NCBI GenBank assembly: GCA_900290255.1
Contig: OMOD01000159.1
Location: 1-64,000 of the forward strand
Origin: Candidatus Sulfotelmatobacter kueseliae
GTDB taxonomy: Bacteria > Acidobacteriota > Terriglobia > Terriglobales > Acidobacteriaceae
DNA length: 64,000 nucleotides
Direction of reading: 5' to 3'
In this document: positions 20,436 to 63,616 of the stretch, piece after piece
Numbering within the stretch: the stretch's first letter is position 1
Layout: the number at the start of each line of letters is the position of its first letter
Notes under the pieces: generated by a model
What the model was told of the DNA's origin: nothing
Databases searched by the model: none
Seen by the model: the letters and a program-made list of their open reading frames with translations, nothing else
Position numbers and translations under genes: made by a program

Positions 20436-20485
20436 TCTCCCACCCTAACGTCGCAAAGAACGCGACGTTAGGATGGGGCACCCGC
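20436..20485 (+). repeat. VSH copy 10
   Basis: Stem CTAACGTCGC / GCGACGTTAG with loop aaagaac. Tandem with copy 11. Confidence 0.82.
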
Positions 20486-20558
20486 CAAAATCCCCACTTC
20501 TCGCAAAACCGGCGAGAAGTGGGGCACCCACGCGGACGTTACGGTGTGGGGCACCCGC
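20486..20558 (+). repeat. VSH copy 11 plus a right half-copy
   Basis: Stem CTTCTCGC / GCGAGAAG, loop aaaacc. A right arm only (gtgtggggcacccgcc) follows at 20543-20558. The array separates the TolC and TPR genes. Confidence 0.8.
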
Positions 20559-20571
20559 CTTTGCAGCAGGA

Positions 20572-46192: not shown

Positions 46193-46227
46193 AAACTGCA
46201 CGTGCGGGTTTCCCGCATGCAGCTTTC
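46193..46227 (-). ncRNA. group II intron domain V-like hairpin
   Basis: On the minus strand the AGC triad region (aaAGCtgcatgcggg) is followed by a GAAA tetraloop and cccgcacgtgcagttt. This is the expected 34-35-nt catalytic hairpin. The maturase stop overlaps its first bases, as is common for ORFs in domain IV. A GC-rich hairpin immediately downstream (about 46140-46180) would be domain VI. Confidence 0.78.
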
Positions 46228-47170
46228 ACAAAGATTTAGTCGCGCCGGGTGAGAGAGAAGGTATTAAATCGAATAAGCGAACAAGCTCGTACTCACCGTA
46301 AAGCTGAGTCATAGGCAGCTGCGTCCAGCCCGCGTTACGCCAATGCTTACAGCGATGCGACCAGATCCGTCGTCGGATCCAGTGATCGAGACGATGAAAG
46401 AGCCTGCGAACGTTGGCGCGCTTATAGTACTCGCCCCAACCCCGCAAGAGTGGGTTAAGCGCCGTAATCAGCTCTGGGGTGGACAGAGGGATAGTTCGCT
46501 TGGTTCGCTGCCGAACCTCATCCTTGAAACGCTGGATCGACTTCGCCTTGGGGTACGCGTAGAGCGCACCATGCCGGACACGGCTACGAATCTTGCTTGC
46601 GGGAAGATCCAACGGTGTCTTCGCGCGCTTGATTAGGTAGCCGAGAAACTCGAAGCCTTGTTGGACATGGACAATCCGCGTCTTTTGCGGATGTAACTCC
46701 ACGCCCAGTTGTTTCAGGATTCGGCGTGCCGTCTCTACCGCGGAACGTGCCTCCGCTGCCGATTTACAGGTAACCACCCAGTCGTCGGCAAACCTCGTCA
46801 GCTGATATCCTCTCAGTCGCATCTCCCGATCGAACGGCGTCAGAAGAATGTTACTGAGCAGGGGCGAAACCACGCCACCTTGCGGCGTCCCACGCTCGCT
46901 AGGAAAGAGCCGCCCTTTGCCGTAGCTTCCCGCTTTGAGCATCGCCCTGATGAGGCGAAGCACGCGGCCGTCGGCTACTCGCTGAGCTACCAGCGTGAGG
47001 AGTTTCTCGTGTTCCGCGGACCCGAAAAAGTCTCGGAGATCCGCATCCACGATCCACTCCGACCCACCTTGAATTTCTTTCCAGAGCTTGCGTAGTGCGT
47101 CCTTCGTCGATCGCCCTCGCCGATACCCAAAGCTGGCATCATCGAATATCGGCTCGAAGATAGGCTCCAA
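46226..47170 (-). CDS. group II intron reverse transcriptase/maturase (N-terminally truncated)
   Basis: The 314-residue frame has RT3 FVDADLRDFFG-type sequence (WIVDADLRDFF), RT4 GTPQGGVVSPLLSNILL and RT5 FADDW, the YADD-type catalytic aspartates. A thumb/maturase X domain follows (LLRGWGEYYKRANVRRLF ... LDHWIRRRIWSHRCKHW). Homology continues a few codons upstream of the listed TTG (QQALLNRL) to the breakpoint at about 47195, so the first 100 or so residues with RT0 and RT1 are gone. No HNH endonuclease is present. It is probably inactive. Confidence 0.88.
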   Translation of the reverse strand: MEPIFEPIFDDASFGYRRGRSTKDALRKLWKEIQGGSEWIVDADLRDFFGSAEHEKLLTLVAQRVADGRVLRLIRAMLKAGSYGKGRLFPSERGTPQGGVVSPLLSNILLTPFDREMRLRGYQLTRFADDWVVTCKSAAEARSAVETARRILKQLGVELHPQKTRIVHVQQGFEFLGYLIKRAKTPLDLPASKIRSRVRHGALYAYPKAKSIQRFKDEVRQRTKRTIPLSTPELITALNPLLRGWGEYYKRANVRRLFHRLDHWIRRRIWSHRCKHWRNAGWTQLPMTQLYGEYELVRLFDLIPSLSPGATKSL

Positions 47171-47194: not shown

Positions 47195-47808
47195 TCGGTT
47201 GGTGGAGTTGGACCGTCTACTATGGCGCCATCAACGAAGGCGAGACCTTGGCCAATGCCGACTGGCAAGCCGAACATCTGAAGTAATCTGAAGTCATTGG
47301 GTTATAAGTATTTCCAAATTTATGAAGGCTATCAGTACGCCCGCGAGAATATACAACTCCCAATGCGACACAATTTCCGGATGGTTTGCGGTTTGTCGGG
47401 CATTACCTTATCGGAGAGGGCCTGACATTCGGCTTATGGACTGCGCCGTTTGAGGTGACAAGCCGAGCGTGGATCTACGAGTACCACAAGGACTGGCTGG
47501 CGCACAATGCCAAGGGCCAGCCGGTTCCCATTGGCGACGTCTGGGACCAGAAGACGGATGTGCTTTACGCCCTGGACACAACCCATCCGGGAGCGCAGGA
47601 GTATATGCGCCAGACTTGCCGGACACTCGTTCGCGAATGGGGGGGCCGGTTCATCAAACTCGACTTCATGGATAGCACGGCGAATCGAGGGTCACCGTTA
47701 CCGCCCCAACACGACAGCCATGGAAGCCCAACGCATTGGCCTCCAAGTAATCCGCGATGCTGTCTTGCAATCTACTTGCAACCCAGTCCATCGAGTTTAA
47801 CCGGACAG
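47195..47808 (+). pseudogene. GH36-type alpha-galactosidase fragment with several frameshifts
   Basis: Homologous to the central part of the intact gene at 61097-63616. It opens GWWSWTVYY, then has a frame change after WQAEHLK. GYKYFQIYEGYQYAREN is read in another frame, where the intact enzyme has DYFHIDEGY; note the Asp to Tyr change. Then PNATQFPDGLRFVGHYL follows in the first frame, FGLWTAPFEVTSRAWIYEYHKDWL, and FIKLDFMDSTA with the catalytic Asp. A further shift leads to GHRYRPNTTAMEAQRIGLQVIRDAV. The N-terminal domain, acid/base region and C-terminus are missing. The left end is cut by the group II intron and the right end merges with the PIG-L gene. Confidence 0.9.
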
Positions 47809-49250
47809 CCGTGTTGGCGCCGGATCGAGATGGAACCGGCACCCCATCCGGCCCTGGAATCCTCTGCATTCAACAAAATTTTGACTATTACGGAACCTAC
47901 GGTCTGGCCTCTGGATTCAGCTCGCCACGTAATCTGCTGCCAGTTGCCTCCGTTTTCCGTGGGAGCGGTGAGAACGAACCACACAGGATAGACATCCTGC
48001 GGCCGCACCGAATACTGCGTAGCAGCGGCCTTCTCGGTCCAGCCGGATGGAAGGTCAGCGCTCAAGTTAATTGTCTGAAGTTGATCCGTGTCGTTATGGA
48101 GCAAAAAAGGCAGCTCCAGTGTGCCACCCGGGTCGACTCCTATCTCCGGCACTTTCATCAAATCGGCAAGGTGTCCAATGCCGTGAGCAGGCCAGAATTT
48201 CCGGTAAAAGGCCCAAGGGTCTCCCAGTTCGATGGAGATCCCCTCGCGGGCTTGCGGACGATAGCCGCAAACGGGCGCAAATGGGATGGGCCCCCGAACG
48301 GCGCCCTCAAAAATATCCCCGGCGACGGCGCCACCCACCAGCGATTTGCCAAGAATGAATCGATCAGGAAGCTGAAAGTACTTGAAATTTCCGGTTGCAA
48401 GAGCGGCCTTCGCCGCCTGCCCTGTTTCGCCCTGGGTCAAATAGTAGGACTCTTCCAGGACCGCGGCCCGGTAGTAGGGCATATGAAGGGACGGAGAAAC
48501 ATCCATCGCGGAATAGACTGGACCTTGTTCCTTCATAAACGCCATCTGCGACGCATCAGAGAAGAAATAAAGCTTTTCGGGCTGCCACGGGCGCAGTCCC
48601 TCGGTAAGGTTACCGATCCCCTTGCGGTCGCGTGGAAAGGAAACCTGTTCCGGAAATGCGGTCGGATCCCCCGCCATGTCAAAGGCTTCCGTGGCGATCA
48701 CAGCGGAAGCCTGATGATCGCCATGATTTTCTCCTACTACAAAATGAGGCAACCATGTGAGGATGACTTCCGGGCGAGTGAGCCGGACAATGCGCACTGC
48801 CTCCTCGAGCGCCGCACCGTGGCCCCAGGTTTCGAGCGAGCGCAGAACATTGTCGCCGGGCGTGTCGGTGGTGCCGCTCATGAACCAGACGTTGAAGACG
48901 CCGATCGAAGCCAGCGCCCGGCGCGCCTCAATTTCCCGGACTTCCCCGATCGCAGCGGCCTGTTCGTAACCCACTTCATTGCCGCCCCCTTGGCTGCGCG
49001 TTCCCTCGAGGACGGCCACCCGTTTGTGCTGATCGGCGATGGCCCTGATCAGATAACCGGCCGGTTCATCGTCGGAATGGGCGACGATGACAAGAATGTC
49101 CGCCTTGTAGCGGTCGTCTGGAAGCGGGCTGGCGGTGGTGGCCTGAGGAGCAAGTTGTCCGATCATTGCAGTGGGCCATACGCCCATCAAGAGGAGAAGC
49201 AAACATCCGATCGGGTTCGGTCGGACAGGAAATGCGGTGCGCTGCTGCAT
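47772..49250 (-). CDS. PIG-L/LmbE family N-deacetylase
   Basis: The protein has 492 residues with an N-terminal signal-like helix (CLLLLLMGVWPTAMI). The zinc-dependent PIG-L fold opens with VIVAHSDDEPAGY, where the usual AHPDDE is AHSDDE (residues 57-62); the second metal site is HGDHQAS. Such enzymes remove N-acetyl groups from GlcNAc-type sugars. A long C-terminal beta-rich extension (about 340-480) follows. The last 15-35 residues overlap the GH36 remnant and look non-native, so the C-terminus may have been remade at the breakpoint. The substrate in this glycan island is unknown; a GlcNAc-containing oligosaccharide is plausible. Confidence 0.85.
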   Translation of the reverse strand: MQQRTAFPVRPNPIGCLLLLLMGVWPTAMIGQLAPQATTASPLPDDRYKADILVIVAHSDDEPAGYLIRAIADQHKRVAVLEGTRSQGGGNEVGYEQAAAIGEVREIEARRALASIGVFNVWFMSGTTDTPGDNVLRSLETWGHGAALEEAVRIVRLTRPEVILTWLPHFVVGENHGDHQASAVIATEAFDMAGDPTAFPEQVSFPRDRKGIGNLTEGLRPWQPEKLYFFSDASQMAFMKEQGPVYSAMDVSPSLHMPYYRAAVLEESYYLTQGETGQAAKAALATGNFKYFQLPDRFILGKSLVGGAVAGDIFEGAVRGPIPFAPVCGYRPQAREGISIELGDPWAFYRKFWPAHGIGHLADLMKVPEIGVDPGGTLELPFLLHNDTDQLQTINLSADLPSGWTEKAAATQYSVRPQDVYPVWFVLTAPTENGGNWQQITWRAESRGQTVGSVIVKILLNAEDSRAGWGAGSISIRRQHGCPVKLDGLGCK

Positions 49251-49362: not shown

Positions 49363-50409
49363 TCACTGTCCAAGGACTTCCTTATACGCTTCGCCCAGAG
49401 TCCGCCACGCGTTGATGGGCTCGGGCGCGGACAAGATCGTTCCGAAGCCAGCGCGATAGGTCCATGAAAAGATCGACTCGACGCCGCTATCGGCATAGGT
49501 GCGGGCGATCTGCCGTATAAAATCGATATCGACGGGAGACTCTAAATAACTCATGATCCATCGTTGTGGAATTTTCTTGTACTTGCGCGCCAGGGCTACT
49601 GTCTTCTCGGCGAGGCGCTGATGAGTAGCTAAGGGGGCGTCGTAACTCGTAACAATTGAAGTCGAAAAGATGTCGTATTCGGGAAACGCGGCTACCTGTT
49701 CCCAATCATCGTAGCCTCGCTCGTACGAGAGATAATAATTATTCTCAGCGGGAAGACTACACTGCGTGACTAGCCACTCTGGACGGAGTAGCCACTCTGG
49801 ACGGATCGATTTCGCGAGCTGGCTCGCGGACTGCAAGATCTGGCGGGCTTTCCGCCTGCGGAATCTCTTCACCTGATCTGTGAGCACTTTCGGCATCGTG
49901 TAGCCATATTCCTGCTCGAATAGTTTTTGACATACTGAGCAGCGGCACGTCCAATCTGCGGTGCTCTGATAGCCAACCGGGTAGATGGGCATTGCGAAAT
50001 GAGGCTCGTCCCAGAATATCCCTTGGGCATCACAGGATCGCGCCAACTTCTCAACCAGTTCGAGAAAGTACTCTTGAAATGCTGGCGTATTAAAGCAAGC
50101 TGCCGCCACAGGTTCACCGGTAAGAGCGGTAATTTGCCGATTCTGAATATTCTCCTGGAGAAAGAGGCTGGGAGGCTCTCCTCCGAAAAACTTACCGACC
50201 CCCCAAGTATCCAGGTAGACGTCAAGCCCCTGGTTCCGGGCCTCTTCGACAATTTTCGGTATATTCGGAAACCAGAAGAATACATCGAACTCACTGAGCG
50301 CCAGCAACACTGCGGTGCAGTGGTGAGCCCGCATTTCGGTAAAGTCTCGTGCTGCATGCTCTGGATAGCTGATTCCGTAATAGCTAACGCCCGTTTCTTT
50401 TACAGCCAT
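49363..50409 (-). CDS. unassigned TIM-barrel-like hydrolase
   Basis: The 348-residue cytoplasmic protein (no signal) has strand-helix alternation: VSYYGISYPEH, CTAVLLALSEFDVFFWF, GLDVYLDTWGVGKFFGGEPP, a likely catalytic block GIFWDEPHF (Asp134, Glu135), and a metal-like CRCSVC (Cys155, 157, 160). SWTYRAGFGTILSAPEP lies at the end. This is the pattern of uncharacterised glycoside-hydrolase-like barrels. I cannot place it in a CAZy family. It is 12 bp downstream of, and co-transcribed with, a SIS-domain gene. A tandem 18-bp duplication repeats RPEWLL as RPEWLLRPEWLV (residues 203-214). Confidence 0.72.
   Translation of the reverse strand: MAVKETGVSYYGISYPEHAARDFTEMRAHHCTAVLLALSEFDVFFWFPNIPKIVEEARNQGLDVYLDTWGVGKFFGGEPPSLFLQENIQNRQITALTGEPVAAACFNTPAFQEYFLELVEKLARSCDAQGIFWDEPHFAMPIYPVGYQSTADWTCRCSVCQKLFEQEYGYTMPKVLTDQVKRFRRRKARQILQSASQLAKSIRPEWLLRPEWLVTQCSLPAENNYYLSYERGYDDWEQVAAFPEYDIFSTSIVTSYDAPLATHQRLAEKTVALARKYKKIPQRWIMSYLESPVDIDFIRQIARTYADSGVESIFSWTYRAGFGTILSAPEPINAWRTLGEAYKEVLGQ
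49771..49806 (+). repeat. 18-bp in-frame tandem duplication in the unassigned hydrolase
   Basis: tagccactctggacggag / tagccactctggacggat, differing only at the last base. It adds six residues without breaking the frame. Confidence 0.9.
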
Positions 50410-50421
50410 GTCGTTTTCTCC

Positions 50422-51204
50422 TCACAGAAACTTGACTCGACTGTTGTATTTGGCGCGAAGTTCAGAATTGTACTGATCCCCTCCCGAAATATTCGCGGAG
50501 CGCCACACGCGAGGCACGACGCCCCGGCGGACGCATTCTTTGACGCACTCGATCTCAAGCCGGTGGGCAATATAGAAATCAACTGTGCTTGAAATCCCCG
50601 TGATTGGCTGATCGAATCCTTCAACCGAAATCACCGTATCGCCATAGGGTACATAGTCGTCGATGCAGATATCGGTGAGGTCGAACAGTGTCTTGCCACT
50701 GCGATGGCGAAGTGGAAAATCCTTAGGAACGTTGCAGTGCCAGGCCTTTGAAGAAATTCCGATTGTCCTAGCTTTCCGACGCTGGCACTCCAGGGCTGCG
50801 TCAATTGTTGGCGCGTTGAATCCGTAACTATGGAACAACAAGACCACGTCATCCTGGGAGACGCCGTAGTAGGACACAATGTGATTGCCGACATCATGCA
50901 AGCGCTCGTGACCGAGATACATGTAGGCAGGAGTAACAGGGTGAATGGAAAAATCAATCATAGGACAAAGGTTTGCTAACCCGCCCGCACGCCAAAACAG
51001 TTCCTGCATGACAAGGCAAGTGTGGCCGCCACCCCCGAACAGATAAATCAGACGATCTTGTTCGCAGGCGTCTGCCATCCACTGGGCAGCGAGAAGCAAA
51101 TTCGTCTGTTGCTCGTTCTCGAATTGACGGATCAGCCCAATGAGCGTCTCCAGTAAGCGAGTGTCGACCCCTTGGCTGATCAATAATGCCGATGACATGG
51201 TCAC
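50422..51204 (-). CDS. SIS-domain sugar isomerase/phosphosugar-binding protein
   Basis: The 260-residue SIS fold includes LIYLFGGGGHTCLVMQELFWRAGGLANLCPMID, YYGVSQDDVVLLFHSYGFNAPTIDAALECQRRKARTIGIS, and TVDFYIAHRLEIECVKECVRRG. It resembles the UPF0309-type SIS proteins. A basic Lys/Arg-rich tail (residues 245-260) follows. SIS domains bind phosphosugars and act as isomerases or regulators; here it probably handles an amino-sugar phosphate produced by the downstream hydrolase, which is inference. The start at 51204 is supported by gaGTGACC-type spacing (aggagtgacc). The neighbouring gene begins 12 bp after its stop. Confidence 0.8.
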   Translation of the reverse strand: MTMSSALLISQGVDTRLLETLIGLIRQFENEQQTNLLLAAQWMADACEQDRLIYLFGGGGHTCLVMQELFWRAGGLANLCPMIDFSIHPVTPAYMYLGHERLHDVGNHIVSYYGVSQDDVVLLFHSYGFNAPTIDAALECQRRKARTIGISSKAWHCNVPKDFPLRHRSGKTLFDLTDICIDDYVPYGDTVISVEGFDQPITGISSTVDFYIAHRLEIECVKECVRRGVVPRVWRSANISGGDQYNSELRAKYNSRVKFL

Positions 51205-51509
51205 TCCTATTGAAAATCGTGCACCGTTTGATGATATGGCTAATGCTTTTGTAAGACGTTCGCTCGGATACTCAGTACGAAATCGAATCCCCGGCGGGTT
51301 TGAGAACGGTCGTGTTTAAGGCCGATAAATAGCCGGAAAAGGATCGTGACGGCTGTCGGCATCTTGTCGTGCTGCGCTCCTAATATTGAGAAACTCCCTC
51401 CATCATGCTGACCATTCCGCTGGGACTGGTCGCGATTTGTTATCTGGGTGCTGGCTTTCGTGCGTGGATCGCCAGGTCAGGGGTTCTACGCGTGGCTCGT
51501 TGATGCTGC

Positions 51510-51790
51510 ACTCTGTGAAGCGCAGAAGCGCAGCGCCATCATCTTTGCGCTCGGCATCTTTCTGTATGCCTACCCAGCGCTTGATCCGCACACCATGCGC
51601 ATCCGGCGTGCTGCAACGGATCGCCGTGGTGTACCTGATCTCGTCGGCGATTGTGCTCTACTGCGGCCGAAAAGCGCGGTGGGTGATCGCGGCGGTGCTG
51701 TTGCTCGGATATTGGGCGCTGATGGAGCTCTATCCGGTTCCTGTATACGGTCCCGGCGTGCTCACGATGGATGGTGGCAGCCATCATTTT
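51510..51790 (+). pseudogene. fragment of an HGSNAT/DUF5009-type membrane acyltransferase
   Basis: Two frames must be joined. SAIIFALGIFLYAYPALDPH in one is followed by SGVLQRIAVVYLISSAIVLY, RWVIAAVLLLGYWALMELY and PVPVYGPGVLTMDGG in the next. The PGVLQRI-type motif and the repeated hydrophobic helices match the central part of heparan-glucosaminide acetyltransferase-like proteins, a different branch from the intact gene at 56015-57136. Possible earlier pieces (LTIPLGLVAICYLGAGF) begin near 51404 in other frames. The start and the C-terminal half are lacking. Confidence 0.75.
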
Positions 51791-52091
51791 AACGATTTGA
51801 AAGAAAGGAGTGGGTTTCGACGCCAAACAATTGCATCGGCAAGCAGCTTGCTGCCAAGCTCACAAGCTGCCGAAAACTCACCTTGAAAGTGTTCCAGAAA
51901 AAGGGGGACCGGTCACACCTAACCCGGATTGAGCCATCATCCCCCGGGACCTTCGACTTCCTGCGCAATATGGCCATACGTGCAAAATAGCGATTCCTGA
52001 GATGAACACTGGGACCAGAATCTAAATGGATTCTCGTGCCGTGACCACCAGCCAAACCTCCAACTCACGAAATTCAATGAGCTGTCAGATG

Positions 52092-55000
52092 TCAGAATGT
52101 AATGCGTACAGCTAGCTGAATGATCCTTGGATCGTATGTGGTCGTAATCTCTCCGAATGTTGAAGAACCAATGTCGTAATTCGGCACACCGAACTGCGCG
52201 GAATTGAAAATATTGAAAAAGTCGACAATGAACTGGCCCTGCACTTTATCTTTGGCCACGCTGAATTGCTTGGCTACCTCAACATCCGTGTCTGCATACG
52301 TAGGTCCGCGGAAGAAATTGCGCGGCAAGGTTCCATATGTGTAAGAGGTAGGCGGTGTAACAAGGGCAGCGTTTTGCAAATTCTGCAGTCGCGCATTGGA
52401 AAAAGTCGCCTGCTGGAAATATACAGAGCCGACTCCATCGGGGCCTACCTCACGATACGGACTCTGCGTAGTCACCTTGGTGCCCACAAGATCAGCACGA
52501 ACCAGTTCTTGATCACCGGCACCAGACGGCCCGGGATCGTTGCCAAGATTACGCGATAACCCCGCCAACACGTCCAACGCAAATCCACTTCTCCATGAAG
52601 AGATAGGCGATACTCTCCAACCCTTGGTAACTACCTTAGGGGCACTCTCGATCCATTTATCGAATGGAACATACCACGTTCCAGAGATAACAACGTTGTT
52701 GGGTACATCCGTATCGGAGTCGGCATAAAACTGCCTCCGGTTATAGTAGGGGACTTCATAGTTTCTTTCCCGGAATCCCGAGACGTTATCCAGGTTTTTC
52801 GAATGCGTATAGGCAAAGGTGAAAGTCATGGGGCCTACGACCGGGGCCTCGGTCAAGTGTTTCGTCAGACGGACTTGCAGACTGTTGTAGTTTGCATATG
52901 TAACATTGTCAAACGTATCCAACCATGAGTAATTACTGTTGTTTCCTGGAGCATATCCGTTCGACAACGAGTACCTCATGTTATAGGTTCCCAAGACGTA
53001 CGGGTTGTAATCAACCGGCGACGTGAGCCCATGCGAAGTGTTGCCGACATACGCTAAGTCGAAGGCCATACCCTGGGGTAAGTCACGCTGCACATCAAGG
53101 TTGTACTGGTAGATGTATGGAGTCTTAAGATGATTTCTCACAAAGTAATTTGCACTTGACCCGTAGGGAAGATACGGTGCAAAACTTACCGTGCTGGTTG
53201 GAGGCTTGGACGGAAATGGATTGATTGTTCCCGTTGCTACATACGGGTTGCTCAAATAATTCAGCGCTGTGGTCTGTCCACCAGGCAGCGGGGCATAGGA
53301 CAGAAATGCTGTGGAGTAGAACGGGGGCAGGCCATTGAACTGCAGATTGGCGTCGCCCGACAAGATGTCGTAGAAGATGCCGAATCCGCCTCGTATACTG
53401 GTCTTTCCGTCTCCTGCTGCATCTAAAGCAAAACCAAAACGCGGCGCCCAGTTTGTGTAATCTGGAAAGCTCACTCCTTCAGGTGCCCCACGATCTCCGG
53501 GAAATACAAGACCAACGGGTGCATTCACAAAGCGGGTTGACTGTTCGCCCGGAATCAGGCTATACGTTCTTCCCTCTGTGTCCCGCCTTGGGGAGTTGTA
53601 TTCGTACCGCAATCCGTAGTTCACCGTCAGGCGGCTCGTGGCCTTATATCCATCCTGCGCATAGGCGGAATATGAGTTAGTCCGAATATTGGAAAGGGCC
53701 CCTGCACCTTGGTAAAAAGAATCCGGGGCTCCAAAAAGTAGATCGGCATACGGATTGCCAGATGCGACACTACTGCCCGGCTGAAAGTTTCCATACAAGT
53801 AGAACCCGCCGTCCACAAAATAGTCATAGGTTGTGTTGTTTTGATATGGCGAGAATCCAACTCCATACTTCATTAGGTGCTTGCCTTTGGTCCATGATAG
53901 AGAGTCCTTATACTCAGATGTGTTGTTGATAAATGAGAGTGGTCCTTGTCCTGTGTAGCCTACGGTAAACAGCGAAGATGCGAAAGTGATGATCGTCGGC
54001 CCCGTTGTAACGTCCGGTGTAATTCCAATTCCAAGAGCGCTTGGTCCGGCAGGATTACCAATTGGTTGATACGCCAGGTTGTTGGCGCGCTGCGCAACAA
54101 CGCGCAACTCGTTCAGCAGGTGTGCCGTAAATGTTCTGGTATAAGCAATTGCAAGGTACGAAATATGGTTCTGGTTTGTTACTGGAAACGGAATGGTAGA
54201 ACCATCAAATGGGCTTAAGATCCGTTCATCCTGGTATGCCAAGGTTGTTGTAAGTAAGTCTGAGTTAGTAATATGAAAATCGACGCGCCCGTGGTACTGG
54301 TTATAGTTGTCTGTGGCCGTGCCCGTGGACAACAAGAACCCATTAGGGCTGGAAGGTATGTAATTCTTTGCAATATAAGCTTTCGTTATTGGATCAATCG
54401 TTGTTGGATCGATAATGCCCGCCACCGCCGACTGCGGATTGGCCTGATAGTACGGATGCGCCTGCAGGAACGCCGCCACCGCTCCATTGGGATCAGTCCC
54501 GGGTGCTGAAAAATCACCGTTCAACTCCGCCGTTGTATAAACCTGCTGGCCGCCATTGTTGAGCGTTGAAGACTCCTTCTGCCCCTGATATGCGAAGAAG
54601 AAGAAGAATCTGTCTTTCCCATTCACCAGTTGTGGAAACACAATTGGCCCGCCTACCGTGCCACCGTATTGCTGGCGCTTCAAATTATCGCGGGGTATTA
54701 TTGGATTGGCGCGTTTGTTGTAGAATCTGTTGGCATCAAATGCCTCATTCCGGGCGTAGTCAAATAGGCTTCCGTGCAGCCTGTTGGTGCCAGATTTTGT
54801 CACAATGCTGATCTGGCCACCTCCGTTCCGTCCGTACTCAGCGGAATAATTGCTCTGTAAAATACGGAACTCCTCAACTGCATCTGGATTCGGCGTAAAA
54901 ACCACGGCGTTAAAGAGGAGATTGTTGTTATCGCCACCGTCCAGTAGATAGCCGACACTATCCGAGCGTCCACCGGCAAGTGACTGGTGATTGGTGCCAT

Positions 55001-55517
55001 CGTCGACCGATCCAGGATTATTTGCATTGGTAACGCCGGGCTGCAACTCTGCCAGGTCCAGTGGATCGCGGCCATTCAGCGGCATTTCGGTAATCGCTGC
55101 ACCCGTCACCGAGTAGCCCACAGTTGAGGTGACGGTATCGATCCGGGCCGCTTGCACTCCTACAGTCACGGTTTGCGTGCTGCCCGCTACTGTCATCTTG
55201 AAGTCGATGCGTTCGGATTGATTGATCTCCAACTTGTATTCCTGTGATGTCAGCGGATTGAATCCAGCATGCTCTGCCGTTACCTGGTATCGCCCAATTT
55301 GCAAATCTATTGCCTGGTAGTCTCCAGATGCATTCGTCATGATCGTCTTAATGACCCCGGTTGCAGTGTTCATGACGGTTATTTTTGCCCCGGGGATTAC
55401 TGCACCCGTTTGGTCGGTAACTGTTCCTAAAATTGACGCTGTCGTATCTTGAGCTTTGAGAAGAGGTACAACCGTAAACAAAAATAGCGCCACCACTCCT
55501 ATGCGAACTTTTTTCAT
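52092..55517 (-). CDS. Oar-like TonB-dependent outer-membrane receptor 2
   Basis: The protein has 1,141 residues with a signal peptide (RIGVVALFLFTVVPLLKAQ). An N-terminal carboxypeptidase-regulatory-like domain (SILGTVTDQTGAVIPGAKITVMNTATGV) and a plug (ITEMPLNGRDPLDLAEL, GGQISIVTKSGTNRLHGSLFDYARNEAF) follow, then a long barrel ending VRITF. It is shorter than receptor 1 (1,317 residues) and only distantly similar to it. GGAGGT stands very close (3 bp) to the ATG. The DNA just upstream is an IS1380 remnant, so the native promoter seems lost. A 96-bp near-copy of its plug region lies inverted at 55889-55984. Confidence 0.93.
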   Translation of the reverse strand: MKKVRIGVVALFLFTVVPLLKAQDTTASILGTVTDQTGAVIPGAKITVMNTATGVIKTIMTNASGDYQAIDLQIGRYQVTAEHAGFNPLTSQEYKLEINQSERIDFKMTVAGSTQTVTVGVQAARIDTVTSTVGYSVTGAAITEMPLNGRDPLDLAELQPGVTNANNPGSVDDGTNHQSLAGGRSDSVGYLLDGGDNNNLLFNAVVFTPNPDAVEEFRILQSNYSAEYGRNGGGQISIVTKSGTNRLHGSLFDYARNEAFDANRFYNKRANPIIPRDNLKRQQYGGTVGGPIVFPQLVNGKDRFFFFFAYQGQKESSTLNNGGQQVYTTAELNGDFSAPGTDPNGAVAAFLQAHPYYQANPQSAVAGIIDPTTIDPITKAYIAKNYIPSSPNGFLLSTGTATDNYNQYHGRVDFHITNSDLLTTTLAYQDERILSPFDGSTIPFPVTNQNHISYLAIAYTRTFTAHLLNELRVVAQRANNLAYQPIGNPAGPSALGIGITPDVTTGPTIITFASSLFTVGYTGQGPLSFINNTSEYKDSLSWTKGKHLMKYGVGFSPYQNNTTYDYFVDGGFYLYGNFQPGSSVASGNPYADLLFGAPDSFYQGAGALSNIRTNSYSAYAQDGYKATSRLTVNYGLRYEYNSPRRDTEGRTYSLIPGEQSTRFVNAPVGLVFPGDRGAPEGVSFPDYTNWAPRFGFALDAAGDGKTSIRGGFGIFYDILSGDANLQFNGLPPFYSTAFLSYAPLPGGQTTALNYLSNPYVATGTINPFPSKPPTSTVSFAPYLPYGSSANYFVRNHLKTPYIYQYNLDVQRDLPQGMAFDLAYVGNTSHGLTSPVDYNPYVLGTYNMRYSLSNGYAPGNNSNYSWLDTFDNVTYANYNSLQVRLTKHLTEAPVVGPMTFTFAYTHSKNLDNVSGFRERNYEVPYYNRRQFYADSDTDVPNNVVISGTWYVPFDKWIESAPKVVTKGWRVSPISSWRSGFALDVLAGLSRNLGNDPGPSGAGDQELVRADLVGTKVTTQSPYREVGPDGVGSVYFQQATFSNARLQNLQNAALVTPPTSYTYGTLPRNFFRGPTYADTDVEVAKQFSVAKDKVQGQFIVDFFNIFNSAQFGVPNYDIGSSTFGEITTTYDPRIIQLAVRITF

Positions 55518-56014: not shown

Positions 56015-57136
56015 CTACGCGCGAATGAAAATTTTGTGCTGGTACAGCCAATAAGACAGGTACCAGATCACAGCCAGAACCGCACAAGCCTGCGCTACAG
56101 GAGCAAGTTCCCCAATGTAGAGGAACCGGCCTGTGAGCACTCCCACGGATTGGTCAAGCCAGCCGTGAAGTATCTCGCCCACGCAGTAGACGAACAGCGA
56201 ATTCATTCCTACGACCACCAGGAAAAACATAGGCCGCCGAATGTTGAAGATCTCGACAAGCAAGTAAAAAAGAATTAATCCGAAAATCGCCCATCCGCTT
56301 GTGTAGAGGGCATACGACGCAGTCCACAACCACTTGTTGATCGGCACGATGGGGGAAAGGGCCAGTCCTGCTGCAAAAGCAATCAGCATTCCGCCGATCA
56401 TCCACTTGAATTTTTCCGACAGACTCCGCGGGCTCCGAAGCAGATTGCCAATCCAAATACCGATCAGCACATTCACCACTTCCGGGATCGTGTTGAGATT
56501 CACGCACGGCGCCATCCGGTAGTTGTGCCCCATAATTCCTCGATCGAGAACAGCCCCGAAATTCGTAACCCGCTGGAAGGCGCCGTCGGGTCCCGGGAAA
56601 ATCAAATACAGCGATGAATGAAATGCAAGAAGCAGTACCGCCGCGCCCATCTGATACGAGAACGGCAACTGCATGAGGAAAAAGCAGACCAAAGAAGTCG
56701 CAGCCACCTGGATCAGAACGTTATGGGCCTGTAGATGGAGGTGATTCGTCTCGACCGAGATAATGATCCAGCTCGTAACGGTGAGGATCCCTGCGCGTTT
56801 TACAAGGTGTCGAAGGAGTTTACTCCGGTCAGCGCCTTCTTCTATGCGGCGACCGAACGAATACGTCATCGCCACGCCCACCATAAAAAGAAAAGCTGGC
56901 ATGACTAGATCCCAGAACACCGCTCCGCCCCAATCCCTATGGTCAAACTGGCGCGCGATCGCTTGATAGGCCGGGTGATTCGATAGCTTGGTAAATCCGA
57001 AGCCCTCCGAAACGAGCAGAAGCATAATGAACCCGCGGTAGGCGTCTAAGGCGAGATCGCGCGGGGCTGGCTTCGTCTCGGGCGATTGGTTCGCCGGGCC
57101 GGGCTCAACGAACACTGCTGAAATCGTGGAACTCAT
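56015..57136 (-). CDS. HGSNAT-like (DUF5009/DUF1624) membrane acyltransferase
   Basis: The 373-residue protein has about 10-11 transmembrane helices and a cytoplasmic N-terminus of about 30 residues (PAPRDLALDAYRGF). The ALDAYRGF opening and the DWGGAVFWDLVMPAFLFMVGVAMTYSF block, followed by LVKRAGIL, are hallmarks of the heparan-alpha-glucosaminide N-acetyltransferase family. In human lysosomes this enzyme acetylates terminal alpha-glucosamine using cytosolic acetyl-CoA, so NAGLU can then remove it. A GH89 gene lies 1.3 kb away, divergent, with only the AraC regulator in between. Bacterial members have no proven substrate. Confidence 0.82.
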   Translation of the reverse strand: MSSTISAVFVEPGPANQSPETKPAPRDLALDAYRGFIMLLLVSEGFGFTKLSNHPAYQAIARQFDHRDWGGAVFWDLVMPAFLFMVGVAMTYSFGRRIEEGADRSKLLRHLVKRAGILTVTSWIIISVETNHLHLQAHNVLIQVAATSLVCFFLMQLPFSYQMGAAVLLLAFHSSLYLIFPGPDGAFQRVTNFGAVLDRGIMGHNYRMAPCVNLNTIPEVVNVLIGIWIGNLLRSPRSLSEKFKWMIGGMLIAFAAGLALSPIVPINKWLWTASYALYTSGWAIFGLILFYLLVEIFNIRRPMFFLVVVGMNSLFVYCVGEILHGWLDQSVGVLTGRFLYIGELAPVAQACAVLAVIWYLSYWLYQHKIFIRA

Positions 57137-57309
57137 AACAGTCGCAATGGTGCATTAGTTACCACTGATGGAGAATCAGATGCTTTCAATGCGGAAGCGC
57201 GATACGAAATCGAACATCGACGGGATCTACAGACAGGCGAACCTCGAGCTCAAGCGGGAGGGTATGTGGTCTTCTATTTTACGCTTCTCGCTAGAAGCGG
57301 AAGCTACAG

Positions 57310-58236
57310 TTACACTCCGCCATCCCGAAGGGGAAGCGTGAAATTCCCCCTACTGGCACGGAACTGCACTGGCGTCGTATGCGTGAAACGCTTGAACGCG
57401 GTCGCGAAATACTGGGATGAACTGAAACCGAACCGCATCGCTACATCGGTGATTGCGAGTTTCTCGTGAAGGAGTGCCTGCTTTGCGGCACCAATTCGCG
57501 TGCGCAATACAAACTCGTGAGGGCCGACACCCAACTCAGATTTGAACCTAGCTTTGAACCGTGACAAGGAGAGATCAGCTTTTTCTGCGAGTTCCTCCAG
57601 CGAAAACTCCTCTTCCGCTGAGGACTGGATGAACTCAACAATCCTTTGAATCTCCGGAGAGCAGCGACGCTGAAAATGCTGATTACTGCAGTCCAGAATT
57701 TCCAAAATGCAACATAATAACTGATTGACCACACGGATCCGCTTCAATGGACTCGATGGCTCATCGTAGATCTCAAAGAGTTGGTTAAAGAACTGCTTCA
57801 GGGCAGGACGCCCCGGAAACTGACGCTCCGGAAAGTGCGACAAACGATCGGCAAGCACGGCACCGTCATTAGGCGGCAGCATCACAAAAGACTCACTCTC
57901 CCTAGGCATCTGCAGGAGGAGCCAGTAAAGTATGCCGCAATCTTCCGGCTGTCCTCCTGTATCGTGAGATTCACCCGGTGCCGTCACAAAAAGGTCGCCC
58001 CCGACCAGTCGATATTCGCGTCCGCCCGCGCGATAAATCTGACATCCTCTCTCTAGATAACAAATCTCGACCGCATTGGGATGAGAATGCGTCGCCAGTC
58101 CCAGCTTTACGGCGTGGTATTCGTAGCGTCCCAGCGCCACAACGGGCAAGATACCGAGACAATTGAAATTGATGATGCGACGCTCGGGAGCTCGCTGGAG
58201 ACGATTTTTTCGGTCGAGATCAGCCTTCGAATTCAT
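57310..58236 (-). CDS. AraC-family transcriptional regulator
   Basis: The protein is about 308 residues. An N-terminal cupin sensor (LATHSHPNAVEICYLERGCQIYRAGGREYRLVGGDLFVTAPGESHDT, about 45-95) is followed by a C-terminal pair of helix-turn-helices (SLEELAEKADLSLSRFKARFK; AITDVAMRFGFSSSQYFATAFKRFTHTTPVQF, about 215-295). The cupin in this group usually senses a sugar. It is divergent from the GH89 gene across 200 bp (58237-58437) that should hold both promoters and the operator; no clear palindrome was found there. ATG at 58236 was chosen over an upstream TTG at 58257. Confidence 0.9.
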   Translation of the reverse strand: MNSKADLDRKNRLQRAPERRIINFNCLGILPVVALGRYEYHAVKLGLATHSHPNAVEICYLERGCQIYRAGGREYRLVGGDLFVTAPGESHDTGGQPEDCGILYWLLLQMPRESESFVMLPPNDGAVLADRLSHFPERQFPGRPALKQFFNQLFEIYDEPSSPLKRIRVVNQLLCCILEILDCSNQHFQRRCSPEIQRIVEFIQSSAEEEFSLEELAEKADLSLSRFKARFKSELGVGPHEFVLRTRIGAAKQALLHEKLAITDVAMRFGFSSSQYFATAFKRFTHTTPVQFRASRGNFTLPLRDGGV

Positions 58237-58437
58237 GGGGGTAGCATATCCTTCCAACTATTCTCAAGCAACCGGAAGCCGGTCACGGAGGAGTACGATC
58301 CCGTATCACGGTGCCCGCTTGAAAGACATGAACAGTCGCGACTGATCTAACGTTGGTAGTCTTTCGCCGGGCCTGTTAGGCTGTGAAGGCGTCGCGGCTG
58401 ATACCGTTACTTTTCAGAGGCTAGAGAGAATTAATCC

Positions 58438-60708
58438 ATGATGACTAGACGCGAATTCTTGGCAGTAGGGTCTTGTGCCGTAGGCAGTGTCCTTATCGGC
58501 GGTGAAAGCGATCCTTCCCTCGCAATGCAAATGGCGACGTTGGATTTAGACGCAGTCTCCGCTAGTCGCTCGGTTTTGAACCGATTCCTCGGAGACCGTT
58601 CAGCCGAATTCGATTTGCAGCAGATTCCACTAGACAACGGACTAGAAGTCTACGTTCTCTCTTGTACCGGAGGCCGGGCCCGAGTCCAAGGAAGCAGCGC
58701 AGTCGCGTTATGTAGAGGTGTATATGCATATCTCCGGGAAATTGGAGCCGTCATGGTGTGCTGGAGTGGGCGACGCGTGTCACTTCCTGTACGCCTTCCC
58801 GACCGGTCGGAGAGAAAAGTAGTTTCTCCCTACCGATTCGTCCAGTACTACAACGTGTGTACCTATGGCTACACCACCGCATTCTGGGATTGGAATCGGT
58901 GGGAACGTGAGCTTGACTGGATGGCTCTGCACGGCATCAACATGCCTCTGGCCATGGAGGGTCAGGAGGCAATCTGGCAGCGCGTTTGGAAGAGCTTTGG
59001 CATAACCCAAGCCGAGCTCGACCGCTATTTTACCGGTCCTGCTTATCTCCCTTGGCACCGGATGGGGAATATCGACTACTACGAGGGACCCTTGCCCCAA
59101 GGTTGGATCGATCAGAAATGCACACTGCAGAAGAAGATCATGGATCGAATGCGGGAACTGGGCATGTGCCCTGTCGTTCCGGCATTTGCGGGATCTGTAC
59201 CGGAGGCATTCAAGCGTATTCATCCGCAAGCGAGGCTATTCACGGAACTCTGGTCGTCAGAGATGCCTCGGCAGTCGAAGTCGCTGATCCTTCATCCCGG
59301 TGAGACGGATCTCTATTGTGAGATTGGCGAGCGTTTCATTCTCGAATATCGCAAAGAGTTTGGGCCAGCACACTATTACCTGGCTGACACTTTTAACGAG
59401 ATGAGCGTGCCAGTCGGCCCCCAACCGGAACAGGACTTGGCCCGATTCGCGAGCACGGTTTACCGGAGCATACAGGCCGGCGATCCCGACGGGGTTTGGG
59501 TCATGCAAGGGTGGCTGTTCCGCAACGATCCGAATTTTTGGAACAATCGCGCCATCGCTGCTTTTCTTTCGAGTGTACCGAACGAACGAATGGTGATACT
59601 GGATTACTCCAATGACTTCAATGCTAGCCAGAAAGACGCCGATCCGACATCACACAATGAATGGAAGGATCACGAGTCATTTTTTGGCAAGCAATGGATC
59701 AATGGCATGATCCATACATTCGGTGGCAACAACAATGTAAAGGGAAATCTAGCCCTGATCACCTCCCAACCAGCAGTGGTTCTGGCGAGCCCGAAGAGGA
59801 AGAACCTCGTGGGTTGGGGCATGGACCCCGAGGGAACCGAAAACAACGAAGTTGTTTACGAATTGATGACCGACATCGGCTGGTCTGAACAGAAGATCGA
59901 TCTGGATGATTGGATTCCGGCATACTGCCGCGCTCGATATGGCGACTGCCCTTCAGCCATCGCTGAGGCGTGGCGACTCCTGCGAGCGAGCGCCTATTCC
60001 TGGCACTCCACCTGGAATACCCGCCATGCCTGGCAATCGCGTCCCAGTTTAGAGCCGCAGTCCGTTGGGGTAGACACAACGCCCGAATTCCACCAGGCGG
60101 TGGAGCGTTTTGTTGAGAGTGGAGGCTCGCTGCAATCGAATGTGCTATATCGCAATGACCTAATCGAACTTGTGACCCAATCTATCGGTGGCCGTGTCGA
60201 TGAGCAACTCATAAAGGCTTGCCGAGCCCACAAGGCCCAACTCGGAGAATTGCGGGATAAGTGTGCCAAGAGAGCTCTAGATATGTTGCTGCGGGTTGAC
60301 GCGCTAATGAATCAGCGACCTGATCGGAGACTCGAAACGTGGATCAGCGCGGCACAAAATTGGGCCGTCGGGGATGACGACAAATCTTATTACGATCGGG
60401 ACTGCCGCCGCCTGATCACTTATTGGGGATGGCCCGAACTCAACGATTACGGTTCCCGCGTCTGGTCCGGGCTGATTCGTGACTACTACGTGGGCAGATG
60501 GCGTGTATTCTTCGAAGCTTTGCAGGCACGGCGTCACCCGAGCCTGGAGATTTGGGAAGAAGGATGGCTCCTCTCTCCGTATGTGGCAAGCACACCATTG
60601 CTGGTATCTGACCTTTTGGCGGAAGCTCGTAGCATGCTGGCAGAGTGCCAGCGGTGGGATTCGAAGGATTCGATGACCTCATCAGTGCTCCTCGGGCCTT
60701 TCAGCTGA
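58438..60708 (+). CDS. GH89 alpha-N-acetylglucosaminidase (NAGLU-like)
   Basis: The enzyme hydrolyses terminal alpha-linked GlcNAc, as in heparan sulfate or GlcNAc-alpha-1,4-Gal of mucins. The 756-residue protein begins with a Tat-type signal (TRREFLAVGSCAVGSVLIGG). The N-terminal domain (about 35-115) is followed by a (beta/alpha)8 barrel with YYNVCTYGYTTAFWDWNRWERELDWMALHGINMPLAMEGQE, MGNIDYYEGPLPQ, and the expected acid/base Glu321 in ADTFNEMS. The nucleophile candidate is Glu465 in MDPEGTENNEVVYEL. A C-terminal all-alpha domain completes the family layout. It is divergent from the AraC gene and upstream of the GH36 gene, 390 bp away on the same strand. Confidence 0.95.
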   Translation: MMTRREFLAVGSCAVGSVLIGGESDPSLAMQMATLDLDAVSASRSVLNRFLGDRSAEFDLQQIPLDNGLEVYVLSCTGGRARVQGSSAVALCRGVYAYLREIGAVMVCWSGRRVSLPVRLPDRSERKVVSPYRFVQYYNVCTYGYTTAFWDWNRWERELDWMALHGINMPLAMEGQEAIWQRVWKSFGITQAELDRYFTGPAYLPWHRMGNIDYYEGPLPQGWIDQKCTLQKKIMDRMRELGMCPVVPAFAGSVPEAFKRIHPQARLFTELWSSEMPRQSKSLILHPGETDLYCEIGERFILEYRKEFGPAHYYLADTFNEMSVPVGPQPEQDLARFASTVYRSIQAGDPDGVWVMQGWLFRNDPNFWNNRAIAAFLSSVPNERMVILDYSNDFNASQKDADPTSHNEWKDHESFFGKQWINGMIHTFGGNNNVKGNLALITSQPAVVLASPKRKNLVGWGMDPEGTENNEVVYELMTDIGWSEQKIDLDDWIPAYCRARYGDCPSAIAEAWRLLRASAYSWHSTWNTRHAWQSRPSLEPQSVGVDTTPEFHQAVERFVESGGSLQSNVLYRNDLIELVTQSIGGRVDEQLIKACRAHKAQLGELRDKCAKRALDMLLRVDALMNQRPDRRLETWISAAQNWAVGDDDKSYYDRDCRRLITYWGWPELNDYGSRVWSGLIRDYYVGRWRVFFEALQARRHPSLEIWEEGWLLSPYVASTPLLVSDLLAEARSMLAECQRWDSKDSMTSSVLLGPFS

Positions 60709-61096
60709 GCTTTGCCGCCAATGTCCAGCAGATCGCACATAAAGATTAGAGATGATGGGGCAGATCAACGATGGAATTTAGATCACCTCCTGGCTCGAAG
60801 ACCTCTTTACGCAGTTGTTTCAACCCCCTCATTTTCTGGTGTTCCTTCATTGCATTGTATCGTTTTACTTACGAACAATCGACAACCGTCCTGTAAGGTA
60901 AGAGGTACATTAATGCTGTGCAGCCACCGCAGAAAATCGAGGCCAGTATCACCGCAAATACCGCAAATAATGATATTGACTGTGCCCCGGTCTCGGACCC
61001 ACATGTCTCTTGACATCGGAACAACAACAAGCGTATTAGCTTGACTTAGGTGAAACGTTTCATCATTTGCATTTAGGATTGGCTGAGGAGCCACAG
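60709..61096 (+). other. intergenic region, GH89 to GH36
   Basis: 388 bp with no gene. It is more AT-rich than the flanks, and a palindrome-like acatgtctcttgacatcgg lies near 61002. It probably carries the GH36 promoter. The GH36 ribosome-binding site (GAGGAG) lies at its end. Confidence 0.5.
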
Positions 61097-63616
61097 ATGA
61101 TTGCACAACGATGGCACAAACTTGTGTTCAGTGCAAGCTTGGCTGTCATTACTCTCTCTATTTCAGCGGTTTGCCAGACCGCTTCGTCACTGCAGAACAA
61201 ATGGTTGGCTGTCTCTGTGCGTAGATCGGACGGCTCGTTTGAAGTGCGGGCTGAGGGACTGCGGGATCCAGTGCTGAGCGCCCGAGTCGGCGCTGAAACT
61301 AATCACAAATGGATTTTTTCGAACGAGTATTCCAAACATGAGGTATCGGAATCGGATTTCCATGATGCCTTGGGCGAGGGTCGCCAAGTTACAGTTTCAT
61401 TCATTGGAGTAAAGGGAAAGCCCAACTTGAGATACGTGCTGCAGTTGTACAACGACCGGCCATACGGGGGCGTGAAGGTCCAAATCGAGAACACTGAGGG
61501 CCAGCCGTTGAAGATTCAAAGCATCCGCATGATTGATGCGGTCGGTAGTCCCCGTGTCAACTTAGGGGGACCCGAGGACGCTGATCGCGTACTCTCTGAC
61601 AGTTACAGTGAGGATCGTCCGCCGCTTCAGATTTTTGATCTTGGCAAAGCTCCGGTTTATTTAGGGCGAGATGAATACGGAAGAGATCTGAGCAACTTGC
61701 ATCTCGCAGTCGGTAGCCAGCTGATTTACAACCGACAGAGTAAGGTCAGCCTCCTTCTCGCAGCGCTTAGCTCAGATCGCTGGCTGACGATCATGCACCT
61801 ACGAACCGCAAGCCCAGGAACTGCCCACATTTCCTCTTACACGGTCGATTCGACCGGCACGACTGAGATCATGAAGAAGGAATCGATACGCGACGACCCC
61901 GCTTCAGACCAGATCGAGCTGAGCGTCCCCTTGCCGCCAGGGAAGACGATTTCTTCAGAGAAGCTGACCTTTTCGGTTAGCAAGGACTATCACGCACAGC
62001 TCGAAAATTATGGCGAAGCCATCCGCCTGCTAAACAAGGCGCGCATTCCTGCTACTGCCCCTTGGGGCTGGTGGAGCTGGACAGCCTATTACTTTGGGCT
62101 TTCGCAAGGAACCGCTGTCACTAACGCAGAATGGCTATCGGAACATTTTAAGGATCTGGGATTCGACTACTTTCACATCGACGAAGGATATGCATACGAT
62201 GACGGCGAGTTCTTGACTCCCAATGCCACTAGCTGGCCAGATGGGCTGCAATCATTTGGCCGCCATGTCTGCCACCTGGGGTTGAAATTTGGCATGTGGG
62301 TTGCACCATTCCGCGTTGGACAGAAGGCCTGGGTTTACGAGAAGCACAAGGACTGGTTGGTTCATAATTCTCAAGGCAAACCCATCCAGATCGGATTCAT
62401 TGATTCAAGCCGTGGCCCGATCTATGTGCTGGACCCAACCCATCCTGGGGCACAGGAGTATCTTCGCCGCACTTTCGAAATTCTGAGCCGCGATTGGGGA
62501 GCGCGTTATTTCAAGCTCGATTTTATGGATGATACAGCGATCGAGGGCTACCGTTATAGGCCCGACGTAACGGCTCTCGGGGCACAGCGCATGGGCTTGC
62601 AGATCATTCGGGATGCGGTCGGCGATGATGTGCTCCTTGATAAAGATGGAAGTCCGATGCTCAACGCCGTAGGCCTGACCGAATTGGGACGAATTTCCGC
62701 CGACACCGGCCACTCATTTGCGGGAACTAAGGAAGATGCCGTTGGAATTGCAGCACGCTACTACATGAATAACAATTTTTATGCTGCCGACCCGGACGCG
62801 TTCACCGTGGCAAGACAGTTGATAACTGATCAAATCTGGCGCCAGTCTAAAACGCCGCTGACCCTTGATGAGGCCGAAGTATCGATCACGCTGGCAGCCA
62901 TAGCTGGAGGCATGTTCGAGTTGGGGGATGATCTGCCGACTTTAGCTGCGGATCCCGATCGCGTCAACTTAGTTCGCAACCGCGACTTGCTCGAGATGGT
63001 GCGCTTGCGCCGAGCGGCCAAGCCATTGGACCTGATGACGTACTTGCCGGAGGACGAGCAACCAAGCGTCTTTCTTCTCCATGAAGATAAGCGTCAATCT
63101 ATGCTGGTGGTTTTCAACTGGACGGAGAGCTTTCGCTCACATGAATTCACGGTCAGCGAATTGGGCATGAAAGAAAACGATTCTCTTGTTGCGTCCGACG
63201 TGCTCCACCAGGATCGGTCGGTTAACTTTGCCCAAGGTACGTTGCGAATTAATGATCAAACTCCTCATTCTGTTCGAGTGATCAAGATTGTCGACAATTC
63301 AATAGCGCCAAGCAACCCTGTCGTTAAGTTGGAGGCTCCAAGCCACGCTCAACTCGGGGTCCCCGTACATGTTTCGTGTGTGGTCGACACCAGCTCTGTA
63401 CCAGTGCTGGCCTACAACTGGGATTTTGGTGATGGGGTTTCTAGTCAGGGGCCTTCGGCTGATCACGCATACACGCGGAATGGCGTTTACAAGATTTTGC
63501 TGAAAGTTGAGGGCATCAATGCCGTGTCCGCGACCCAGGCGACCTCAATTACGATCCTAGGAACCACGCAAACGACTTACGATGCCGAGCACTCGCGCAG
63601 ATACAAGGAACGTTGA
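61097..63616 (+). CDS. exported GH36-type alpha-galactosidase-like enzyme with PKD domain
   Basis: The protein is about 839 residues. A signal peptide (LVFSASLAVITLSISAVCQ) is followed by an N-terminal beta-sandwich (about 30-300) and a catalytic barrel with APWGWWSWTAYYFG, DYFHIDEGYAYDDG, KFGMWVAPFRVG, and YFKLDFMDD with the nucleophile Asp475. The acid/base is likely Asp536 in ISADTG. A beta C-terminal domain is followed by a PKD-type domain (about 740-830; YNWDFGDGVSSQGPSADHAYTRNGVYKILLKV) that probably binds polysaccharide. The ATG at 61097 follows GAGGAG; a 10-codon upstream extension is unlikely. GH36 also contains alpha-N-acetylgalactosaminidases, so the sugar is open. It shares the locus with a broken paralogue at 47195-47808. 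Confidence 0.92.
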   Translation: MIAQRWHKLVFSASLAVITLSISAVCQTASSLQNKWLAVSVRRSDGSFEVRAEGLRDPVLSARVGAETNHKWIFSNEYSKHEVSESDFHDALGEGRQVTVSFIGVKGKPNLRYVLQLYNDRPYGGVKVQIENTEGQPLKIQSIRMIDAVGSPRVNLGGPEDADRVLSDSYSEDRPPLQIFDLGKAPVYLGRDEYGRDLSNLHLAVGSQLIYNRQSKVSLLLAALSSDRWLTIMHLRTASPGTAHISSYTVDSTGTTEIMKKESIRDDPASDQIELSVPLPPGKTISSEKLTFSVSKDYHAQLENYGEAIRLLNKARIPATAPWGWWSWTAYYFGLSQGTAVTNAEWLSEHFKDLGFDYFHIDEGYAYDDGEFLTPNATSWPDGLQSFGRHVCHLGLKFGMWVAPFRVGQKAWVYEKHKDWLVHNSQGKPIQIGFIDSSRGPIYVLDPTHPGAQEYLRRTFEILSRDWGARYFKLDFMDDTAIEGYRYRPDVTALGAQRMGLQIIRDAVGDDVLLDKDGSPMLNAVGLTELGRISADTGHSFAGTKEDAVGIAARYYMNNNFYAADPDAFTVARQLITDQIWRQSKTPLTLDEAEVSITLAAIAGGMFELGDDLPTLAADPDRVNLVRNRDLLEMVRLRRAAKPLDLMTYLPEDEQPSVFLLHEDKRQSMLVVFNWTESFRSHEFTVSELGMKENDSLVASDVLHQDRSVNFAQGTLRINDQTPHSVRVIKIVDNSIAPSNPVVKLEAPSHAQLGVPVHVSCVVDTSSVPVLAYNWDFGDGVSSQGPSADHAYTRNGVYKILLKVEGINAVSATQATSITILGTTQTTYDAEHSRRYKER

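Follow-up and report, generated by a model that had tools for sequence, protein, structure and literature searches.

A divergent HGSNAT-like acyltransferase near a GH89 gene in Candidatus Sulfotelmatobacter kueseliae, and a recurrent HGSNAT–GH89 gene pair in bacteria

GH89 enzymes act on alpha-N-acetylglucosamine (GlcNAc) ends, and alpha-glucosamine (GlcN) ends with a free amine should therefore block them. Loss of HGSNAT causes Sanfilippo C. The subject of this report is a stretch of 64,000 nucleotides (positions 1 to 64,000 of contig OMOD01000159.1, assembly GCA_900290255.1) from Candidatus Sulfotelmatobacter kueseliae, referred to in the following as the window, in which a gene for an HGSNAT-like protein lies close to one for a GH89 alpha-N-acetylglucosaminidase (NAGLU). 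PMC11199644 assigns roles in human HGSNAT to R275, M282, N286, H297, D307, R345, R372 and E499; PMC12423673 describes a DxxR motif and suggests that DUF5009 proteins are orthologous with HGSNAT. Transmembrane glucosamine acetylation by bacterial HGSNAT homologues (NagX) was proposed with fitness data by Price et al. 2022 (PMC9007349). A pairing of GH89 with HGSNAT, NagX or DUF proteins was not found in titles or abstract starts of the open-access literature, among the matches listed. The preliminary description of the window had taken such a route to be new in bacteria; the acetylation is already proposed, the GH89 pairing would be the new part, and the window copy is an odd member.

The genes in question are:

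56015..57136, minus strand: HGSNAT/NagX-like transmembrane acyltransferase of a divergent subfamily, 373 residues (assigned by NagX model, PDB HGSNAT match, predicted fold and tree)
57310..58257, minus strand: AraC-family regulator with an AraC_binding domain (Pfam HTH_18, 8.3e-20; AraC_binding, 7.4e-11)
58438..60708, plus strand: GH89 alpha-N-acetylglucosaminidase (NAGLU), 756 residues (Pfam, PDB match)
51386..51886, plus strand: apparent remnant of a canonical-type HGSNAT gene, core ~51605–51790 (matches to HGSNAT-type queries)

The HGSNAT-like gene and NAGLU are on opposite strands, 1301 bp apart, with the AraC gene between them. The same arrangement was found in one near relative, the fen_85 metagenome-assembled genome (L081), and the same-strand, directly adjoining arrangement typical of other bacteria does not occur in the window.

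The HGSNAT-like protein matched the NCBIfam NagX model over residues 26–372 (E 2.8e-40), with a score of 138.6 bits that does not reach the curated cut-off of 480, and matched human HGSNAT in a PDB sequence search (E 6e-10). No Pfam family, DUF5009 included, was matched at E ≤ 0.01, and the DUF5009/DUF1624 labels first given to it are not backed by Pfam at that threshold. An AlphaFold model, made from an input alignment with 16 relatives, had a pTM of 0.80 and a mean pLDDT of 77.9; the stretch 61–71, containing the catalytic His, was of low confidence. When the model was searched with Foldseek, the 15 top chains were all HGSNAT (E 2e-10 to 4e-8, TMq 0.69–0.73), followed by GWT1, and the protein is thus predicted to have the transmembrane HGSNAT fold.

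Ten positions of human HGSNAT were compared in a single alignment: D272, R275, M282, N286, H297, D307, R345, R372, R379 and E499. R379 was our own addition; the other positions come from the two papers cited above. In this order the residues of the window protein are D R L E H D R Q Q R, and five of the ten are thus retained. The catalytic His, whose absence would have told against the preliminary description, is present as H66, and the His297–Asp307 dyad is completed by D76; the DxxR motif is retained as D31xxR34, as is R345. The protein differs at M282, N286, R372, R379 and E499. The place of N286, which binds the acetyl carbonyl, is taken by E, but a gap adjoins this position, so that a one-residue shift is possible, and the ungapped pairing gives G instead. 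In human HGSNAT, N286D is far milder than N286Q or N286A (PMC11199644), so that activity could survive an acidic residue there. The glucosamine-binding residues R372 and E499 are replaced by Q and R, respectively, and the DPEG motif is missing.

The window NAGLU has the N-terminal, TIM-barrel and C-terminal domains (three Pfam domains, best E 3.3e-125), and its nearest solved structure is the alpha-N-acetylglucosaminidase 4xwh (E 1.4e-129), which we take to be the human enzyme. Residues E321 and E465, presumably the catalytic Glu pair of GH89, fall on the FNEM and PEG glutamates when aligned with 4xwh, and neither varies among 11 GH89s. The N-terminus is twin-arginine-like, and we assume this motif to be an export signal. 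From its sequence, the enzyme is predicted to be active.

The preliminary description had asked whether HGSNAT-type and GH89 genes are associated in other genomes, and they recur widely as a tight pair. Among 150 genomes of the host's family, NAGLU was present in 17 and an HGSNAT-type gene in 95. We collected 99 NAGLU loci, comprising 19 stretches from family genomes (the window's own excluded) and the best 80 of 555 relatives from a species-wide collection, a sample biased towards the window's GH89. An HGSNAT-type gene was found somewhere in the stretch in 40 of the 99 loci, and in 37 it lay within 200 bp of NAGLU on the same strand, upstream of GH89 in four and downstream in the rest; the remaining three were L081, L092 and L138. 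In many pairs the two frames overlap, by amounts that are upper bounds because gene starts were set at the first possible codon. Further Acidobacteriota NAGLU loci had the same arrangement in 7 of 16 cases and a different one in 9, giving a total of 44 of 115 loci with a directly adjoining, same-strand HGSNAT-type gene; these 115 include duplicates (L055/L086 and L058/L082 are from the same contigs, and L070/L071 are probably one gene split by contig ends). The pair occurs in Acidobacteriota, Pseudomonadota, Bacteroidota and Planctomycetota, in genera including Xanthomonas, Sphingomonas, Asticcacaulis and Granulicella. Since the listed family genomes have at most six HGSNAT-type matches each, we infer that chance adjacency with NAGLU would be below 1%. 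All ten compared positions were identical to human HGSNAT in 42 of the 44 paired genes, the exceptions being L097 and L129. Distances between the partner proteins correlated over the 44 pairs (r 0.81, uncorrected for shared descent; 0.83 without L086, L097 and L129), as expected from shared descent as well. Tandem GH89 pairs, in stretches that lack an HGSNAT-type gene, were observed in the Bacteroidota loci L089, L091, L093, L095, L096, L098 and L099, and likewise in L110, L111, L115, L116, L118 and L145.

A maximum-likelihood tree of 64 rows, midpoint-rooted for drawing only, separated two sides. One (branch support 100/98) held human HGSNAT, 42 paired genes, L092, L138 and the C139 paralogue from the window's own genome (L076); the human branch is long, making its exact placement unsure. 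The other held the window protein and its relatives, the own-genome C43 paralogue, L078, L097 and L129. The window copy is thus outside the clade of human HGSNAT and 42 of the 44 paired genes, and L097 and L129 are divergent-side members that directly adjoin NAGLU. Its close relatives L072, L073 and L074 are 41–51% identical to it. L073 has MFS and SIS genes as neighbors; L074 has GH20, ROK kinase and EamA transporter genes, which would fit an amino-sugar setting; and none of four neighbors scanned in L072 was a recognized sugar gene. Two genomes, G404 and G492, carry both a window-type gene and NAGLU, but on different contigs or more than 300 kb apart. In contig C43 of the window's own genome (L075, 8006–12034), a second divergent HGSNAT-like gene lies between genes for a Melibiase_2 alpha-galactosidase and a weakly GH123-like protein, all on one strand. 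The HGSNAT-like, GH123-like and TonB genes have counterparts in L079 that are 77–78% identical, and no counterpart of the alpha-galactosidase was found there. This arrangement may be a version of the pairing idea for amino sugars.

The broken HGSNAT-type gene of the window is a TTG open reading frame. Of 17 HGSNAT-type queries, 12 hit its core at E ≤ 2e-7, namely all ten NAGLU-paired ones used, the C139 paralogue and L078 (best, 6.5e-12); the window-type relatives L072–L074 did not hit it at E < 5. On this evidence the fragment resembles a canonical-type HGSNAT gene. Similar sequence appears by eye to continue 5' of the core in another frame; the catalytic-His region was not convincingly recognizable, and no query match reached the C-terminal part. 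The order TonB–HGSNAT–AraC–NAGLU is common to the window and L081, at 93–97.5% DNA identity, and collinearity stops at window position 60664, inside the last 44 bases of NAGLU. The TonB-type gene, whole in the window, is split into two overlapping frames in L081 (133–3556).

In our tentative reading, which falls a little short of an even call, the window holds a derived, rearranged version of the recurrent GH89 and HGSNAT-type module, with an acyltransferase that would use a differently bound acceptor. By analogy with human HGSNAT, the membrane enzyme of the standard module would most likely take acetyl from cytosolic acetyl-coenzyme A (CoA) through its pore. The His would activate the amine on the far side, and the glucosamine end would be N-acetylated in the periplasm; the exported GH89 would then cleave the alpha-GlcNAc, if we have the order of steps right. 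Such a two-step is likely in the canonical same-strand pairs and uncertain for the window's own copy. In the window lineage, the canonical-type gene would have decayed to the nearby fragment, and a divergent TmAT-fold acyltransferase would now lie beyond the AraC gene. Judging by the retained His–Asp dyad and some CoA-side residues, this protein probably still moves acetyl across the membrane, to an acceptor that would be bound differently from glucosamine in HGSNAT; the identity of that acceptor is doubtful. The transmembrane-acetylation route for GlcN-capped glycans put forward in the preliminary description is accordingly favored by the His and by the recurrence of the pair, but sits poorly with a window copy that is outside the canonical clade and without N286, R372 and E499.

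Several observations weigh against our reading. No adjoining same-strand HGSNAT-type gene was present in 71 of the 115 NAGLU loci (an upper bound, given contig ends), so GH89 frequently does without such a partner. The unpaired C139 paralogue likewise retains R372 and E499, and these residues therefore do not tell glycan ends from free glucosamine as the acceptor. The divergent HGSNAT/AraC/NAGLU adjacency was seen solely in the window and its near relative, and the neighbors of the window protein's relatives are mixed: MFS/SIS, GH116 with a MocA-type oxidoreductase, protein kinase, PMT_2 and MBOAT.

These mixed neighbors would also fit the view that the window protein has lost GlcN N-acetyltransferase function and acylates some other extracytoplasmic acceptor (a sugar, envelope glycan or lipid), its proximity to NAGLU being a local accident of one lineage. 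We consider this plausible, if somewhat doubtful. It would account for the replacement of N286, R372, R379 and E499 and for the separate clade, and agrees with the finding that, among 396 Acidobacteriota genomes, a window-type gene (E ≤ 1e-25) adjoins NAGLU in the window's own genome alone. It is countered by the retained His–Asp dyad, by the direct adjacency of the divergent-side L097 and L129 to NAGLU, and by the own-genome divergent paralogue lying between GH123-like and alpha-galactosidase genes.

Because R372 and E499 do not discriminate glycan ends from free GlcN, NagX-type salvage is a live rival, one that we judge rather unlikely. Here free periplasmic glucosamine would be acetylated for GlcNAc uptake and NagK/NagA, GH89 would merely feed the same GlcNAc pool, and glycan ends would not be acetylated. 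The greater abundance of HGSNAT-type genes than of NAGLU in the host's family means that most of them act without NAGLU, which suits this explanation, as does the unpaired C139 paralogue. In two Asticcacaulis loci the pair is directly followed by a kinase of the BadF/BcrA type, a family that presumably includes GlcNAc kinases; this would suit both the salvage explanation and our own reading. Price et al. (PMC9007349) put the proposal forward with fitness data in five bacteria. Salvage alone, however, does not account for the same-strand adjacency to GH89 in 44 of 115 NAGLU loci.

Neighboring genes bear on the substrate, with the caveat that the counted rows are related rather than independent, and that TonB-type proteins, which recur too, were excluded from the scans. 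A GH2 cluster was present in 14 of the 40 loci that carry an HGSNAT-type gene and in 2 of the 59 that lack one, in Acidobacteriota and Pseudomonadota (L055 and L086 being one genome). In pooled Pfam scans, GH2 occurred in 7 of 88 neighbor proteins of the former, and was absent from the 25 families listed for 96 neighbors of the latter, meaning at most one there. Two GH2 neighbors tested best matched beta-galactosidases of two kinds, and beta-glucuronidases more weakly; the glycosidase seen repeatedly in the vicinity of the pair is thus, by sequence, a GH2 resembling beta-galactosidases. For a GH115 cluster the corresponding counts were 6 of 40 and 2 of 59; Sphingomonas accounts for seven of these eight loci and Asticcacaulis for one (one cluster member was checked by Pfam). 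We considered GH115 alpha-glucuronidase as a general partner and rejected it: of 12 carrier genomes tested, 8 have GH115, but the window's genome lacks it and the cluster is mostly from Sphingomonas, so that it looks lineage-bound. In a different Asticcacaulis locus, L131 (Asticcacaulis solisilvae, 15488–21984), an RpiR/SIS regulator and iolC/D/E/B-like genes, named from their Pfam domains, lie ~2–9 kb downstream of the pair; one more homologue of the iolC-like gene was found, in the unpaired locus L101.

A lysosome-like heparan or heparosan degradation locus is very improbable: both lysosomal enzyme types are represented, a GH89 from Bacteroides is known to cut heparosan oligosaccharides (PMC8225759), and a sulfatase-fold protein lies near L195, an unpaired relative of the window protein, but the heparinase II/III domain PF07940, the single Pfam lyase family searched, is absent from the window's genome, no sulfatase or heparinase was among the families with two or more matches in the 88 neighbors, and the tested GH2 proteins are closest to beta-galactosidases. 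Of the sulfatases that the preliminary description had thought worth seeking nearby, along with heparin lyases, none was seen among 13 window proteins (part of its genes) and 7 from L077. From the PF07940 result and the 88 neighbors, a heparan-like substrate is not indicated. In the plant glycosylinositol headgroup, the linkage to glucuronic acid (GlcA) is alpha-1,4, as in heparan. We speculate that plant and soil bacteria may use the two-step to uncap alpha-glucosamine-capped glycans, the substrate being the GlcN/GlcNAc-GlcA-inositol headgroup of plant glycosylinositol phosphorylceramides (or the GlcN-inositol of glycosylphosphatidylinositol anchors) and not heparan; this we hold to be unlikely. 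The idea stays speculative because neither GH115, which this genome lacks, nor the inositol genes seem to extend beyond particular lineages. On bacterial breakdown of plant inositol sphingolipids, a study of a fungal phospholipase C was the one pertinent paper among the matches listed.

The other genes assigned around the locus are:

52092..55517, minus strand: TonB-dependent/Oar-like outer-membrane protein, downstream of the HGSNAT-like gene (OMP_b-brl_4, 3.3e-173)
50422..51204, minus strand: SIS-domain sugar isomerase-like protein (profile matches, including Pfam)
49363..50409, minus strand: protein without assigned family (no match in Pfam or in the PDB sequence search)
47772..49250, minus strand: PIG-L/LmbE-type deacetylase with a weak NEW3-domain match (Pfam)
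61067..63616, plus strand: melibiase-like glycosidase with a PKD domain, which we take to be of GH36 type (Pfam; L081 is not collinear here)

The HGSNAT-type fragment and the SIS and PIG-L genes lie ~4–8 kb from the HGSNAT-like/AraC/NAGLU genes. Profile and homology searches agree with the preliminary description on the presence of each of these six. A group II intron-type reverse transcriptase with a maturase domain is found near the PIG-L gene (46226–47170). Further off are a phospholipase B-like protein (28998–30428) and a gene of the GH47 family (40964–42403), which is better known for eukaryotic N-glycan processing.

If the speculative uncapping of plant headgroups holds, the lysosomal pair of humans would represent one application of a bacterial module that is older, and divergent subfamilies, such as those of the window and of the GH123-linked gene, would have been adapted to other amino sugars. 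A paired acetyltransferase would lift the block on GH89 in bacteria as in lysosomes, the pairing would point to an overlooked environmental substrate, and the bacterial pairs would supply small models of HGSNAT. The window gene, as a natural variant with the catalytic dyad kept and the glucosamine pocket altered, would be useful for the question of acceptor choice.

Compared with known systems, the window GH89 shares the three NAGLU domains and two catalytic Glu with 4xwh and 2vc9, and differs in being bacterial and, judging by its N-terminus, exported. The acyltransferase has its fold superfamily in common with DUF5009 proteins, without matching that Pfam family at E ≤ 0.01. With NagX (NF046061) it shares length, the His and the model match over residues 26–372, but its score is 138.6 bits against a cut-off of 480 and its glucosamine-site residues are changed. 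From human HGSNAT (PDB 8vlg, 8jkv, 8tu9) it differs in having ~20% identity by structural alignment, in the loss of M282, N286, R372, R379 and E499, and in being, at 373 residues, too short for the luminal domain, whereas the predicted TmAT/TNAT fold, the H297–D307 dyad, DxxR and R345 are shared.

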